Source: Candidatus Fermentibacterales bacterium (GTDB lineage Bacteria; Fermentibacterota; Fermentibacteria; Fermentibacterales; JAFGKQ01). From it: DNA of 12,839 bases. Under the pieces are notes generated by a model that did no database searches, was not told the origin of the DNA, and saw only the letters and a list, made by a program, of their open reading frames with translations. This document shows positions 1,842 to 7,430 of this stretch, piece after piece. Each line of letters starts with the position of its first letter. Positions within the stretch are counted from its first letter, which is position 1. The DNA is taken from positions 1-12,839 of the forward strand of contig JAFGKQ010000210.1 of the NCBI GenBank assembly GCA_016928495.1, given 5' to 3'. The translations under genes were made by a program, and so were the position numbers.

Positions 1842-2999
1842 TCAGTCGAGCAGCAGGCGCCGGAGATCGTCGGCCCTGTCGGTCTTCTCCCAGGTAAAGG
1901 TGCCATCGCCTCCGGGGTTCCTTCCGAAATGGCCGAAAGCAGCGGTCCGTCTGTATATCGGCCTCTGCAGATCGAGATACTCAATTATGGCGTAGGGCGT
2001 GAGGACGAACACCTCCCTGACCGCGCTCTCGATCCTGAGCGGGTCCACCGATTCTGTGCCGAAGGTATCGACACGGACAGACCGCGGCTCGGGCTTGCCA
2101 ATGGCGTAAGCCAGCTGGACCTCGCACCTGTCCGCAGCTCCCGAGGCAACGATGTTCTTGGCGATGTGCCTTGCCATGTAGGTGGCCGACCTGTCTACCT
2201 TCGTCGGGTCCTTGCCCGAGAAGGCGCCGCCGCCGTGCCTTCCCTCCCCGCCGTAGGTATCCACGATGACCTTGCGCCCGGTTAGCCCGGAGTCCCCGTG
2301 CGGCCCCCCTATCGCGAACCTGCCGGAGGGGTTGTAGAGCAGATGGCCGTTCCAGTCCAGGTGCGGGTCGAAGGTGTCGAGAACGGGGGCGATGACCTTC
2401 CGCCTGATGTCGTCCTCCATCTCGGCCTCGAGGGCATCGTCCGCGTGATGGACCGACATCAGGATCTCCCTGATGTGAAGCGGACGGTCATCCTCGTACT
2501 CGACGGTGACCTGGCTCTTGGCATCCGGTCTTGCCCAGGGCAGCAGCCCTTCCTTGCGGATCTCCGACAGCCTCTCGAGCAGCCTGTGGGCTATCTGGAT
2601 GGGGTAGGGCATGAACGCGCTGGTCTCCCTGCAGGCGTAGCCGAACATGATGCCCTGGTCTCCCGCGCCGTGCTCGGCCTCCACACCCTGGTCTATGTCC
2701 GACGACTGAGGGTGTATGAGGCAGAGGTACTTGTTCTCCTCCCAGTGGAAGCCGAGCCCCGGCAGGGTGTAGCCGATGTCCCTTATGGTCTCCCTCGCGA
2801 CATCGACGAAGTCGATCTTCACGCTGCTCTTCACCTCGCCGGCAAGCAGGCAGAAGTTGGTGGTGACGAGGGTCTCGCAAGCGACGTGGGAGTTCCTGTC
2901 CCCGGCCAGGTGTGCGTCCAGGATGGCGTCGGAGACCTGATCGCAGATCTTGTCGGGGTGTCCCTCGGACACCGATTCGCTAGTGAAGAGGTTTCGCAT
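1842..2999 (-). CDS. metK: S-adenosylmethionine synthetase (methionine adenosyltransferase)
   Basis: MetK makes S-adenosylmethionine from methionine and ATP, releasing phosphate and diphosphate; it is cytosolic. The 385-residue product has normal family length and the expected motifs: GHPDK at residues 13-17, GAGDQG at 111-116 (the adenine-binding signature), FAIGGPHGDSGLTGRK around 228-242, and the glycine-rich P-loop GGGAFSGKDPTKVDRS at 256-271. No key residue is missing. The ATG at 2999 is supported by GGAAAGG eight bases upstream and by the standard start RNLFTSESVSEGHPDK. A SAM-II riboswitch and a strong promoter lie directly upstream, so expression should fall when SAM is plentiful. The neighbours upstream make homocysteine, the precursor of its substrate. 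The downstream envC-like and holB-like genes follow closely and are probably co-transcribed. Confidence 0.98.
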   Translation of the reverse strand: MRNLFTSESVSEGHPDKICDQVSDAILDAHLAGDRNSHVACETLVTTNFCLLAGEVKSSVKIDFVDVARETIRDIGYTLPGLGFHWEENKYLCLIHPQSSDIDQGVEAEHGAGDQGIMFGYACRETSAFMPYPIQIAHRLLERLSEIRKEGLLPWARPDAKSQVTVEYEDDRPLHIREILMSVHHADDALEAEMEDDIRRKVIAPVLDTFDPHLDWNGHLLYNPSGRFAIGGPHGDSGLTGRKVIVDTYGGEGRHGGGAFSGKDPTKVDRSATYMARHIAKNIVASGAADRCEVQLAYAIGKPEPRSVRVDTFGTESVDPLRIESAVREVFVLTPYAIIEYLDLQRPIYRRTAAFGHFGRNPGGDGTFTWEKTDRADDLRRLLLD

Positions 3000-3007
3000 C
3001 TCGCCAG

Positions 3008-3074
3008 CCTTTCCGGGCTTAGTCGGATTTCTCGGGGCCGGACGGAAGACTGGCCCTGAAGGAGGGATCCGACT
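3008..3074 (-). promoter_or_regulatory. metK leader: candidate expression platform with competing stems
   Basis: Between the SAM-II aptamer and the metK start codon the RNA can form a perfect 8-bp stem, AGTCGGAT (3074-3067) with ATCCGACT (3028-3021). It encloses a 5-bp hairpin, GGGCC (3056-3052) with GGCCC (3039-3035). The left arm contains the GTC (3073-3071) that the aptamer needs for its pseudoknot, so the two folds exclude each other. If the right arm is freed, its TCCG (3027-3024) can pair with CGGA (3015-3012) and cover the start of the ribosome site GGAAAGG (3014-3008). The anti-SD-like CCTCCTT (3065-3059) also lies here. The pairings are visible; the switching mechanism is inferred. 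I see no U-tract, so control at translation rather than termination seems likelier. Confidence 0.5.
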
Positions 3075-3122
3075 TTTTAGCTTTTTTTAACGTGGTTGCA
3101 ATAGGTCCCAAATCAATCCACA
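3069..3122 (-). promoter_or_regulatory. SAM-II riboswitch aptamer (metA motif) upstream of metK
   Basis: Read on the minus strand, this stretch carries the hallmarks of SAM-II in order. A short P1 stem TGTGG (3122-3118) pairs with CCACG (3095-3091, one U-G pair). The loop contains TGATTTG and then ATTGCA just before the 3' P1 strand. After P1 come TTAAAA and the highly conserved GCTAAAAAG. The H-type pseudoknot is satisfied by GAC in the loop (3107-3105) with GTC right after the A-run (3073-3071). The reference aptamer, as I recall it, uses CC with GG at this place, so this looks like compensatory change. The predicted transcription start (about 3123) falls at the first base of the aptamer, and the gene that follows is metK, a typical SAM-II target. 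SAM binding usually lowers expression. Confidence 0.92.
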
Positions 3123-3129
3123 ACCAGCG

Positions 3130-3158
3130 ATGATATGCCCGTTCCTCGCGTCTGTCAA
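3130..3158 (-). promoter_or_regulatory. sigma70-type promoter of metK
   Basis: TTGACA (3158-3153), a 17-base spacer and TATCAT (3135-3130) form a near-consensus housekeeping promoter on the minus strand. The expected start, six to seven bases past the -10 box, is at about 3123, which is the first base of the SAM-II aptamer. The leader is therefore about 124 nt. The promoter lies 35 bases past the stop of the HcyBio gene, so metK can be transcribed independently of the homocysteine operon, although read-through is possible because no clear terminator lies between them. Confidence 0.8.
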
Positions 3159-3193
3159 ACCCGGTGGGAGCGGCGATCCCGGGAGGAGCAACC

Positions 3194-4387
3194 TCACGCC
3201 GGACGCCCGCCCGGGTACCCCGCCGCACCCGGCAGGGGAGCAACCGGTCTGCTCAGCAGGAACCTCCCTTCCATCATCAGGTCCCGGAGCTCACCGGCGA
3301 TCGCGCGGGCCCTCGGATAGCTCGAGATCGAGGAGCAGCGAACCCGCTTCCCGCGCAGCTCGAAGCACCCGCTCCTCAGCTCGGCGTAGCTGACCATCCC
3401 CAGGGGCGGCGCGCCGCCGTGCTCCGGATAGTCCGACCCGTAGTCGACCACCGGAGCGAGGATGTCCTCGTCGGACACCGAGGTGAAGGCAGCCATCTGC
3501 TCGTCGAGGATGGGAACCGGGACGGCTATGCCTACGGCGAGGGATACACCGTAGCCCCTTATGGAGACTCCGCGCACGTACTCCCTCCTCATCCCCTTGA
3601 GGTCTCCGGCGACACAGATCGTCCCGGCTCCCTCCATGGGGACTCCCCTTTCGTTCCTCCTCACGTCGGGATCGTGCTGTGTCCCATGGAAGCAGACATA
3701 GCCCTCCCCGCCTCCCAGCAGTATCCTGGAGCCCAGGCCTATGGTCCTGTAGAGCGGGTCGTTCAGGAGCGGCGAGAGCTGCCCAGCCGAGGAGAAGCCC
3801 GCGTTCGCCGCGCCCGGTCTGAGGATCCCGAGGTAGGTGTAGATCGGCCGCTCTATGGAGGCGTTCACCGCGACGTTGTAGTTCTGGTAGGCGTTCCTGG
3901 GGTTGACCAGAATGGCGTCCCCCATAGAGGCAAGGTCCAGCTCGGCCTCGACGCTCCGCCTGGGATAGCAGTCGCCCCCGTATGCCTCGCCCCTGAAGAG
4001 AACGCTCTTCCCGGCCACCAGGTCCTCGATGACGTGCCCGCCGCCGTAGGCGAAACGGCCGGGGAAGACGCTGTTCGCCGGATCGCCCTCCGGCAGGCTT
4101 GTTGCGCCGATGTAGACGTCTACCGCGGCGAGACCGGCGTAGGCCGGGACGTCGTTCAGCCAGGCCTTCTGTAGCTTGATCCTGGGGCTGGTATGACCGA
4201 CGTTCAGGAAGGCCCCGCTCGAGCACATGGGACCGAAGGTCCCGGTGGTCACCACATCTACCTTCCCGGCTGTCGCACGGATGCCTTCCGATCGGGATAT
4301 CCAGGCCATCTCCTCGGCGGTCACCACCACGGCAGAGCCAGCCCGAAGCTTCTCGTTTATCTCCTCCCAGGTTCTCTCCAGTCGCAT
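3194..4387 (-). CDS. Homocysteine biosynthesis protein, HcyBio/DUF39 family (MA1821-like)
   Basis: A 397-residue protein of the HcyBio family (formerly DUF39). In Methanosarcina and in sulfate-reducing bacteria this family, with the NIL/ferredoxin partner, is linked genetically to making homocysteine from aspartate semialdehyde and sulfide without the O-acylhomoserine route. The family signature is clear: VDVVTTGTFGPMCSSGAF near residues 43-60, GHTSPRIKLQKAWLNDVPAY, RGEAYGGDCYP, VNPRNAYQNYNVAVN, and the C-terminal PRARAIAGELRDLM. Cys55 and Cys140 sit where the two cysteines considered important in MA1821 lie. The ATG at 4387 has GGGAGGG six bases upstream and overlaps the 3' end of the ferredoxin gene by 31 bases. 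The frame stays open a further 173 codons upstream, but that stretch is read in another frame as the ferredoxin gene, so it is not part of this protein. Confidence 0.93.
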   Translation of the reverse strand: MRLERTWEEINEKLRAGSAVVVTAEEMAWISRSEGIRATAGKVDVVTTGTFGPMCSSGAFLNVGHTSPRIKLQKAWLNDVPAYAGLAAVDVYIGATSLPEGDPANSVFPGRFAYGGGHVIEDLVAGKSVLFRGEAYGGDCYPRRSVEAELDLASMGDAILVNPRNAYQNYNVAVNASIERPIYTYLGILRPGAANAGFSSAGQLSPLLNDPLYRTIGLGSRILLGGGEGYVCFHGTQHDPDVRRNERGVPMEGAGTICVAGDLKGMRREYVRGVSIRGYGVSLAVGIAVPVPILDEQMAAFTSVSDEDILAPVVDYGSDYPEHGGAPPLGMVSYAELRSGCFELRGKRVRCSSISSYPRARAIAGELRDLMMEGRFLLSRPVAPLPGAAGYPGGRPA

Positions 4388-4824
4388 ACCGGGCCCTCCC
4401 CTCCTGCGGCCAGCAGCTCCCCTATGGACTCCAGAGCGCCGTAGACGCAGCCAGGCACACAGAGCCCGCAGCCCGTGCATTTCTCCTCGTCCAGCCTCAC
4501 CTCGAGAGTCGCCGGATCCAGGACGAGCGCCTCCGACGGGCACTGGGCCACACATGCGCCGCAGTGGACGCAGGACTTCTCGTCGAGCCAGACGTTCCTC
4601 GATGGATGCCTGACGGCTACCGAGCACTCCTCGAGAAAGCGGAAGGCCCCGGAGAGCGCCTCTTCCTCCCCAAGGAAGATGGCCAGCATCCTTCCGTCCT
4701 CCGACGGGGAGATGAAGGCCTGCATGATGTTCACCTCGACATCGCAGCTCTTCAGGAGCCTCGATATTATCGGCTTGTCCATGACGGCCTTGGGAAAGGT
4801 GAGCAGCGCGCTTCTGCTCTTCAT
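4357..4824 (-). CDS. NIL domain + two [4Fe-4S] ferredoxin protein, partner of HcyBio (MA1822-like)
   Basis: A 155-residue protein. Residues 1-75 form a NIL-like domain (LTFPKAVMDKPIISRLLKSC ... MQAFISPSEDGRMLAIFLGE), otherwise known from methionine ABC transporter ATPases and linked to methionine-related sensing. It is followed by two ferredoxin motifs, CVHCGACVAQCP and CTGCGLCVPGCVYGAL, each with the CxxCxxCxxxC pattern for a [4Fe-4S] cluster. Proteins with this layout are encoded beside HcyBio and are thought to supply electrons for the reductive sulfur step in homocysteine formation. The ATG at 4824 shares ATGA with the stop of the UPF0280 gene and has GGAGG eight bases upstream, so translation is coupled. 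The clusters imply an anaerobic cytoplasm. All eight cluster cysteines are present. Confidence 0.93.
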   Translation of the reverse strand: MKSRSALLTFPKAVMDKPIISRLLKSCDVEVNIMQAFISPSEDGRMLAIFLGEEEALSGAFRFLEECSVAVRHPSRNVWLDEKSCVHCGACVAQCPSEALVLDPATLEVRLDEEKCTGCGLCVPGCVYGALESIGELLAAGGEGPVCDWREPGRR

Positions 4825-5612
4825 ACGACCTGCCTCCCTCCGGTCCCGGCGCCACGGCCCGCGCTGTCCAGGCGCACGCTGCCGCCGACTCCGATCCTGT
4901 CCCCACAACACACCAGCAGTCCCCTCAGTCTCCCGATCAGAGCCCCGTCGCTCATCGCCGCCTCCACATCCTCCGGTGCCCTGATGCTGTTGGCTATGGC
5001 CGTAGCGGCGGCATCGGCCTCGGCTCCGCTTCCGGCAATCGCCACCACGGCATCAGCCTGCCCGAAGGAGAGGGAGTGACCGAACCTGCCGCTCGAGGTG
5101 CAGACTCCTACTCCTCCCCGTGCACTCACCGTGAAGGTGATGCGCCGGGGGAAGGGGGAGCGCTCGCCGGGGAACAGAGCGATGCTGATGTCTCCCGGAG
5201 CTATCGCGAAGACGTCCCCGCCGTTCTCGACGATCACCCTGGATGACAGGCGCCCGAGGTCCCGGCCAACGCGCTCGGCGATCGCCCCGGCAACACAGGC
5301 CATCGGGCCCACGTTCCAGGCACCGGAGGCTCGCAGCATCTCGGCCACGACCGGGGAGGGAGCCTGATCGGCATCCATGGAGACCGGGCAGAGGGAGCTT
5401 GCGAACCGCCCTCCTCCCGGACCCTCGATGACCGCCTCGATCTCTCTCCTGGCCATCGACAGGGATGCGTCCGCCAGCATCTCCAGCGGGCCCTCGCAGC
5501 TCACCTGCATGTTGCTCTGGCCGCGTGTGAGCTCGAACACGCGAAGTCCGGAGCCTCCCTCGCTCACCCACTTCCTGTAGGTGCGATTCCCGTAGACACT
5601 GCAGCAGCCCAT
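4821..5612 (-). CDS. UPF0280 (ApbE-like) family protein, sulfide assimilation accessory (MA1715-like)
   Basis: A 263-residue protein with the UPF0280 core: NVGPMACVAGAIAERVGRDL around residues 105-125, then VIVENGGDVFAIAPGDISIA, GVCTSSGRFGHSLSFG and DAAATAIANSI. The fold is related to the flavin-transferring ApbE proteins. In Methanosarcina acetivorans the homologue MA1715 is reported to help use sulfide efficiently for homocysteine, and the family is often encoded with HcyBio and NIL/ferredoxin genes, as here. The biochemical reaction is not known. The ATG at 5612 follows a good ribosome site, GGAGGAGA. It is the first gene of a three-gene operon with overlapping junctions. The start CCSVYGNRTYRKWV matches the family's N-terminal Tyr-Arg-x-x-Val feature. 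Confidence 0.9.
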   Translation of the reverse strand: MGCCSVYGNRTYRKWVSEGGSGLRVFELTRGQSNMQVSCEGPLEMLADASLSMARREIEAVIEGPGGGRFASSLCPVSMDADQAPSPVVAEMLRASGAWNVGPMACVAGAIAERVGRDLGRLSSRVIVENGGDVFAIAPGDISIALFPGERSPFPRRITFTVSARGGVGVCTSSGRFGHSLSFGQADAVVAIAGSGAEADAAATAIANSIRAPEDVEAAMSDGALIGRLRGLLVCCGDRIGVGGSVRLDSAGRGAGTGGRQVV

Positions 5613-5928: not shown

Positions 5929-6020
5929 CCCCCCGCAGGCTCCCGCCTCTCTCGGAAAACGGTCGGGTGTTGCTTATAGTCACTACTCGATTCGTGCTGA
6001 AGAGAAAGGCAAGACTCCGC

Positions 6021-7430
6021 TTGAAAGTAGCCCTGATCTACCCACCATACGGCAGGGGTAGGAGATCCAGGTATTTCCCCTTCGGCCTCGCCTACGTGGC
6101 CAGCGCACTCGTGCAGGACGGCCACGAGGTCAGAGCCATAGACATGGAGGGCGAGGACCTGGACGTGGACCAGGCGGTGCGCCGTACCCTGAGCGAGTCT
6201 CCCGATGTGATCGGTTTCGGCGGGATGATCACGAGGTACAGGTACGTAAGGGAGATCGCCAACAGGGTCAGGGAAGAGCTGCCCGGGGCCTTCCTCATGG
6301 CGGGAAACAGCGGTGCGACTACGCTTCCGGAGATGTACCTCAGGGCCTGCCGTCTGGACGCAGTCGTCCTGGGTGAGGGAGAGACTACCGCCCGGAGCCT
6401 GGTGTCCGCGCTCCAGAACGGTGACGACTGGCGCGGCACGAGCGGGATCGCCTACCTCCGGAAGAGCGGCGAGATGGCCTTGTCCGAGCCAAGGGAGCTC
6501 CTCCCGGATCTCGATGCTCTTCCTTTTCCGGCATGGGACCTCTTCCCCGTGGAGAAGTACGTAAGGAGCGTGGACCACAGGCAGAAGTACACCAGGCACC
6601 TGGAGGTCGTTGCCAGCAGGGGCTGCCCCTACGGCTGCGTCTACTGCTTCAGGATCTACGGCAGGACGATCAGGAGGAGGTCTCCGGAATCGGTGGTCGC
6701 GGAGGTCGAGGAGATCGTCAGGCGTTACGACATACGCTACACGGGCTTCCCCGACGACCTGTTCACCAGTGACAGGGACTTCGTCATGCGCACCTGCCGG
6801 CTGCTCCGGGAGAGAGTGCCAGGCATCCGCTGGTCCTGCATGGGCCGGGTCAACACGGTGGATCCGGAGATGCTCTCGGTCATGCGCGAGTCCGGGTGCG
6901 ACTGGATCTCGTTCGGCATCGAATCGGGAAGCGACGAGATGCTCCGGAGGATGAAGCGTGGGGTCGACTCCACGCAGTGTCTCGAAGCCGTCAGGATGAC
7001 ACGCGAGGCAGGGATACACCCTGACGGCAGCTTCATGATAGGCATGTTCGGCGAGACCGGGGACACCGTCGCGGAGACCGTGGACTTCTGCAGGCGGGCG
7101 GACATGACGGGGCCGATTCTCTTCGTCACCCCCTACCCCGGGACGGAGATCTTCGGCGAGGCTCTTCGCCGGGGCCTGATCCCGGACGTGGAGAAGCTCG
7201 TCGAGAGCATGGACGCGGCTGACAGGCTGCTGGTGAACCTCTCGGAGCTGCCGGACGAGGACCTCATCGCGCTGAAGGAATGGGCCCAGGGCAGGATCGG
7301 CCTCGAGTACCTGCTGCGGAGGCCGTTCTCGAGGATACCCGCCCTTCTGATCAGGCACCTCTATCTGAGGGGCCTTGGCAAGATAGTGGAGGATTTCCGG
7401 GAGGCGATCAGGGGCTCGCGAGCCAGATGA
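6021..7430 (+). CDS. B12-binding-domain radical SAM protein, substrate unknown
   Basis: A 469-residue protein of the B12-binding radical SAM class, which couples cobalamin and a SAM-cleaving [4Fe-4S] cluster and often does methylations or ring rearrangements. Residues 1-130 resemble the cobalamin-binding Rossmann domain (MKVALIYPPYG ... FPFGLAYVASAL ... DVIGFGGMI ... VVLGEGE). The cluster motif CxxxCxxC is intact at Cys202, Cys206 and Cys209 in ASRGCPYGCVYCF. The barrel follows (GFPDDLFT, RWSCMGRVNTVDPEML, WISFGIESGSDEMLRRMKRG, SFMIGMFGET). The C-terminal 90 residues are basic and helical, without a recognised domain. I chose TTG at 6021 because it gives the family start MKVALIYPPYG and has AAAGG 11 bases upstream. 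GTG at 5967 or 5994 would add 18 or 9 residues without a ribosome site. The neighbours do not reveal the substrate. Confidence 0.85.
   Translation: MKVALIYPPYGRGRRSRYFPFGLAYVASALVQDGHEVRAIDMEGEDLDVDQAVRRTLSESPDVIGFGGMITRYRYVREIANRVREELPGAFLMAGNSGATTLPEMYLRACRLDAVVLGEGETTARSLVSALQNGDDWRGTSGIAYLRKSGEMALSEPRELLPDLDALPFPAWDLFPVEKYVRSVDHRQKYTRHLEVVASRGCPYGCVYCFRIYGRTIRRRSPESVVAEVEEIVRRYDIRYTGFPDDLFTSDRDFVMRTCRLLRERVPGIRWSCMGRVNTVDPEMLSVMRESGCDWISFGIESGSDEMLRRMKRGVDSTQCLEAVRMTREAGIHPDGSFMIGMFGETGDTVAETVDFCRRADMTGPILFVTPYPGTEIFGEALRRGLIPDVEKLVESMDAADRLLVNLSELPDEDLIALKEWAQGRIGLEYLLRRPFSRIPALLIRHLYLRGLGKIVEDFREAIRGSRAR

Follow-up and report, generated by a model that had tools for sequence, protein, structure and literature searches.

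SAM-II aptamers stand before metK across the Fermentibacterales, with a terminator-less copy that may act on translation

The SAM-II riboswitch class has been reported from alpha-, gamma-, and other proteobacteria and from the Bacteroides group, and its usual design is that of a transcriptional OFF switch (PMC1273637, PMC2258182). Members of the SAM_alpha/SAM-II family (RF00521; Corbino et al. 2005, PMC1273637) usually have a promoter a few bases before the P1 stem, and many of them carry a terminator after P2. Weinberg et al. (2010, PMC2864571) list the long-loop form (RF01726) from Bacteroidetes and from marine samples. Two copies in Sinorhizobium meliloti illustrate different read-outs: the metZ riboswitch works through a terminator, and the metA riboswitch is translational, with the Shine–Dalgarno (SD) sequence lying within the riboswitch (PMC9373788). 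The crystal structures of SAM-V show a SAM-binding core that is nearly identical to that of SAM-II, combined with a short P2a and a translational read-out in which the P2a helix itself covers the SD sequence (PMC6061858).

Here, we analyzed a stretch of 12,839 nucleotides (the window) from a Candidatus Fermentibacterales bacterium (contig JAFGKQ010000210.1), for which an earlier note had proposed a SAM-II riboswitch directly in front of metK, the gene for methionine adenosyltransferase. An E-value scan of positions 2980–3230 gave RF01726 as the best-scoring family, with 41.2 bits (E = 8e-7) at 3127–3067 on the minus strand, in a match that spans the model from end to end (model positions 1–60). 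RF00521, the family that the note had named for this check, did match (3131–3057 on the minus strand, E = 0.0014), but with 23.9 bits it fits less well than RF01726. Because the curated gathering scores are 44 and 36 bits for RF01726 and RF00521, respectively, both matches are subthreshold, the former by 2.8 bits, and an Rfam scan of the window at the gathering thresholds yielded no match. In the 2.3-Mb draft genome, the element in the window is the only match to RF01726 (E = 1.8e-6).

A covariance model made from 20 relatives, with the window left out, scored the element at 62 bits (E = 4e-14) and found no other match within the window. When the same model was run against 80 metK loci from other lineages, the best match reached only E = 0.09, and carrying the aptamer is therefore no general trait of metK leaders. 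SAM-V gave no row in the window scan at E values up to 10. As in RF01726, P1, the GAUUU/AUUGCA/GCUAAA core, and the pseudoknot follow each other in matching order: on the minus strand, the window has P1 GTGG/CCAC, TGATTTG, ATTGCA, TTAAAA, and GCTAAAAAG. The core segments GAUUU, UAUUGCA, and GCUAAAAA are all intact, the aptamer being 2 nt shorter before GCUAAAAA than in most relatives, and the columns of the core are invariant or nearly invariant across the aligned aptamers. The element in the window, which shares its fold and core with RF00521 as well, is a SAM-II aptamer, as the note had stated. Table 1 lists the features of the locus.

Table 1. Positions of the aptamer, its pairing strands, and the neighboring elements in the window
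Feature	Position	Strand	Basis or remark
−35 element TTGACA	3153–3158	−	Promoter-like pair scan
−10 element TATCAT	3130–3135	−	17-nt spacer; ends 8 nt before P1 GTGG
SAM-II aptamer	3067–3127	−	RF01726 match; window-free model
P1 5′ strand UGUGG	3118–3122	−	Alignment
Strand a GGGACC, can pair with a′ in place of P2	3104–3109	−	Pairing analysis
P2 5′ strand GAC	3105–3107	−	Alignment
P1 3′ strand CCACG	3091–3095	−	Alignment
P2 (pseudoknot) 3′ strand GUC	3071–3073	−	Alignment
Putative antisequestor 5′ arm AGUCGGAU, includes P2 3′ strand	3067–3074	−	8 perfect pairs, p = 0.0028
Strand a′ GGAUCCC, alternative partner of a	3064–3070	−	Swap test, 35 leaders
Candidate anti-SD strand GCCAGUCUUCC	3044–3054	−	p = 0.01–0.19, depending on control
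Putative antisequestor 3′ arm AUCCGACU	3021–3028	−	8 perfect pairs with AGUCGGAU
Ribosome-binding region GGAAAGGCUGGC, pairable with 3054–3044	3003–3014	−	Complementarity
metK, methionine adenosyltransferase, regulated gene	1842–2999	−	TIGR01034, 521 bits; Pfam

The pairing scheme was assessed using 30 aligned aptamers, in which 97.9% of the cells in P1 and P2 are standard pairs. The covariation score over both stems was 0.197, compared with 0.131 in shuffles, and none of 500 shuffles reached it; when four loci not belonging to the order were added, the score was 0.342, while shuffles gave 0.164 (none of 500 reaching the observed value) and sliding the register gave at most 0.142. The outermost P1 pair is C–G in 17, U–A in 10, and U–G in three of the 30 aptamers, and across all sequences, including those from outside the order, it is C–G, U–A, A–U, or U–G; this closing pair also shows two-sided changes. 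In P2, all three pairs are changed on both sides once the four outside loci are included. The middle P2 pair is G–C in 29 aptamers and A–U in one, the latter being the window, where GAC/GTC is in register with the GGY/GCC of the relatives. These two-sided changes, together with covariation in excess of the shuffles, indicate that the GAC/GTC pairing is right and in register, and they support the covariation that had been suspected in P2. In the window, P2 consists of only three pairs, compared with the 5-bp P2a of about 60% of SAM-II aptamers (PMC6061858).

RF01726 matches with E values of about 1e-5 or better were obtained for 35 of 42 genomes of the order, covering all nine genera. The cut-off of RF01726 was passed in 19 genomes; 16 of the 35 aptamers, including that in the window, score below it, and genuine members are thus lost at the curated cut-offs. 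Two relatives (L005 and L006) were confirmed to pass RF01726 and two (L006 and L023) to pass RF00521. In all 35 genomes, metK lies directly downstream of the aptamer, its start being 105–126 nt after the start of P1 in each of the 34 genomes other than that of the window. The downstream gene in the window, which the note had taken to be metK, is well above the TIGR01034 cut-off (309 bits), and a scan of a genome-contig collection with metK as query returned mostly Firmicutes metK, at 52–58% identity. As to the seven genomes without a match, metK is absent from G009, G030, G035, and G040, cut by the contig end in G010 and G032, and present as only a broken fragment in G038. These genomes thus lack a metK 5′ end, which entails that, among the 42 genomes, all with an intact metK 5′ end carry the aptamer. 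Since the aptamer is found in every relative with an intact metK start, metK is most likely self-repressed when SAM is plentiful. From the sequence evidence, we consider it highly probable that the element in the window is a SAM-II switch repressing metK, with SAM as the presumed ligand and OFF as the presumed direction.

Within the order, there is one SAM-II copy per genome and it stands on metK only, a single-copy, metK-only use that sets these aptamers apart from RF01726 as described. Two weak second matches (G016:C49 and G039:C73) were dropped, the sequence there having no SAM-II core. SAM-I riboswitches, which were sought across the order as an alternative regulator, were found only in G026, where two of them (L148 and L149) score above the cut-off on one contig (C72). 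This genome also has SAM-II before metK, and the SAM-I contig may stem from horizontal transfer or from contamination (4%); in an earlier study, SAM-I and SAM-II were not seen together in any species (PMC2258182).

The promoter arrangement of the window resembles that of RF00521 members. The TTGACA/TATCAT pair has 11 of 12 consensus matches and outranks the three other promoter-like sites of the window, where 1.4 such pairs would be expected by chance at a lower bar of nine matches, and most relatives have a similar layout before P1. Based on the consensus, the −10 box predicts a transcript start at about 3123–3125, i.e., 1–3 nt ahead of P1 (3122). The near-consensus promoter claimed in the earlier note is thus present, and the transcript would start just before P1.

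The aptamer is shared throughout the order, whereas the read-out appears to differ. A hairpin followed by a U-tract lies between aptamer and metK in 33 of 35 leaders, as in the S. meliloti metZ riboswitch and many RF00521 members, and is missing in the window and in L031. In L031 (the metK leader of G005), a GC hairpin is followed by TCGACAGC without a U-tract terminator, and this leader may represent another change of read-out. Two alternative pairings would compete with the fold of the SAM-bound state. Pairing of the P2 5′ strand with a downstream strand (a/a′) has a mean energy of −8.6 kcal/mol in own leaders, compared with −7.8 kcal/mol in swaps, and the own-leader value beats all 5000 swaps over the 35 leaders. 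By inspection, the P2 3′ strand can also pair with the 3′ arm of the terminator in many leaders. In a swap test of this antiterminator pairing, own leaders were no better than swapped ones, because terminators are alike within genera.

We propose that RNA polymerase starts a few bases ahead of P1 and that abundant SAM would bind the pseudoknot core and lock P2 (GAC with GUC), upon which metK expression would drop; SAM would thereby limit the enzyme that makes it. The relatives would read this out through an intrinsic terminator, and locking of P2 would permit termination because the free P2 3′ strand can pair with the 3′ arm of the terminator. In the window, the P2 3′ strand would instead be taken up in an antisequestor hairpin of 8 bp (AGUCGGAU/AUCCGACU), as part of one of its arms. 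Once P2 is locked, this hairpin would break and release GCCAGUCUUCC to pair with GGAAAGGCUGGC, and the resulting helix over the ribosome-binding site would block translation.

No U-tract terminator was found between the aptamer and metK in the window. Shuffled sequences seldom have an arm of such length anchored on the P2 3′ strand (p = 0.0028). Comparison of the GCCAGUCUUCC/GGAAAGGCUGGC sequestor with chance gave moderate values (p = 0.01–0.07 with the middle shuffled and 0.10–0.19 with the SD shuffled), a first estimate of 0 of 300 having weakened to this range of 0.01–0.19 under more controls, and most relatives have nothing comparable. Folding calculations, which mimicked the P2 pseudoknot by keeping bases from pairing, indicated that the free RNA prefers the antisequestor and leaves the SD bases GGAAA unpaired with a probability of over 0.84. 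When the aptamer was blocked and the RNA was extended by 40 nt of coding sequence, the lowest-energy fold was that with the sequestor, and the SD bases were mostly paired. By a simpler accessibility score, the window ranks third of 35, with two terminator-bearing relatives changing more, and this score alone therefore does not mark the window as special. On balance, these observations slightly favor a switch that is read out by translation in the window, through masking of the ribosome-binding site.

The more specific idea, that the lineage of the window has kept the aptamer and uses the P2 3′ strand to feed an antisequestor and sequestor controlling ribosome access, unlike the terminator-type order, is put forward tentatively, as its chances fall somewhat short of even. 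The ribosome-binding site of the window is about 57 nt downstream of P2 and outside it, which contrasts with SAM-V and with the S. meliloti metA riboswitch, the latter also differing in its target gene, metK being the gene behind the separate sequestor proposed here. If this idea is true, the design would be unlike that of known translational SAM-II riboswitches, where P2 itself covers the SD sequence, and would amount to a natural exchange of the expression platform while aptamer and gene stay the same.

The chief competing explanation is that the same aptamer acts in the window by premature termination, which would either depend on Rho or take place at a hairpin that lacks a U-tract (GGGCC...GGCCC, about 3056–3034). 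This hairpin is GC-rich and still present at the place where 33 of the 35 leaders have their intrinsic terminator, and the riboswitch literature considers both terminators that lack a U-tail and coupling through Rho (PMC2258182, PMC9373788). A 300-kb sample of the window's genome shows no enrichment of intrinsic-terminator-like sites (1.7 per 100 kb, 1.5 expected), which would fit reliance on other termination; four relatives of similar GC content have six such sites in 138 kb, which is a small difference. The absence of a U-tract terminator speaks against premature termination, and the P2-anchored hairpin, like the SD complementarity, is in keeping with a translational design; we regard termination as a possible but rather doubtful account of the window.

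It may also be asked whether the aptamer is functional at all. It could be a decayed relic, inherited from the ancestor of the order, in a genome where switching of metK has been lost, as might be suggested by the scores below the cut-offs, the absent terminator, and the 2 nt that are missing before GCUAAAAA. Such decay is hard to reconcile with the intact core, with the best promoter in the window, and with a P2 pair that has changed on both sides at once, from G–C to A–U. Moreover, the shorter A-rich linker also occurs in other functional-looking copies, and a relic thus seems improbable. A chance or convergent look-alike of SAM-II would explain why no Rfam gathering score is reached in the window, but it would have to account for the RF01726 and window-free scores, for a place before metK in 35 of 35 genomes, and for relatives that exceed the cut-offs of both families. 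The conserved orthologues effectively refute this possibility, leaving a SAM-II switch on metK as the most likely account, with translation as the slightly favored read-out.

The kind of switch is known, whereas its order-wide use and the terminator-less copy in the window look new; no report of SAM-II in this order was found in the literature searched. Since the class is known and scattered beyond proteobacteria, the window adds a further member with a lineage-specific read-out. The extension of the class's range suggested earlier is hence real and order-wide, but modest, given the proteobacteria and the Bacteroides group already on record and the four further families outside the order described below. 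What is unusual is the order-wide, one-per-genome, metK-only use, together with the apparently changed read-out in the family of the window, and a lineage that reserves the aptamer for metK thereby joins a class known above all from the methionine genes of alphaproteobacteria. With the aptamer and its gene constant and the read-out apparently different from family to family, the order provides a natural test of a change from transcription stop to translation block.

Upstream of metK, at 3194–5612 on the minus strand, genes for HcyBio (PF01837), a NIL-ferredoxin, and a UPF0280-like protein (PRK04334) stand in line. HcyBio and NIL-ferredoxin make homocysteine in some anaerobes, and a homocysteine-making set beside metK is therefore metabolically sensible. 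This set had been taken as an indication of an atypical host, but none of its genes was seen near the metK leader in 34 relatives (flanks of about 1.5 kb), so that it is uninformative on the range of the class. A gene for a B12-binding radical SAM protein (5967–7430, plus strand) is divergent from the homocysteine gene set.

Outside the order, the relatives-based model matched five of 343 genomes, belonging to four families, with E values below 1e-3. The genes downstream, named by inspecting translations, are cystathionine gamma-synthase-like in G136 and G274, a metY–metX-like pair in G277, panB-like in G102, and an unnamed ORF in G123. In L128, a SAM_alpha match above the cut-off (3002–3075, plus strand) precedes a panB-like ORF (ketopantoate hydroxymethyltransferase), which is an unusual target for a SAM sensor. 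In L127, from a 1.3-Mb genome, a SAM-II long-loop match above the cut-off (3023–3081, minus strand) precedes an ORF of 203 amino acids.
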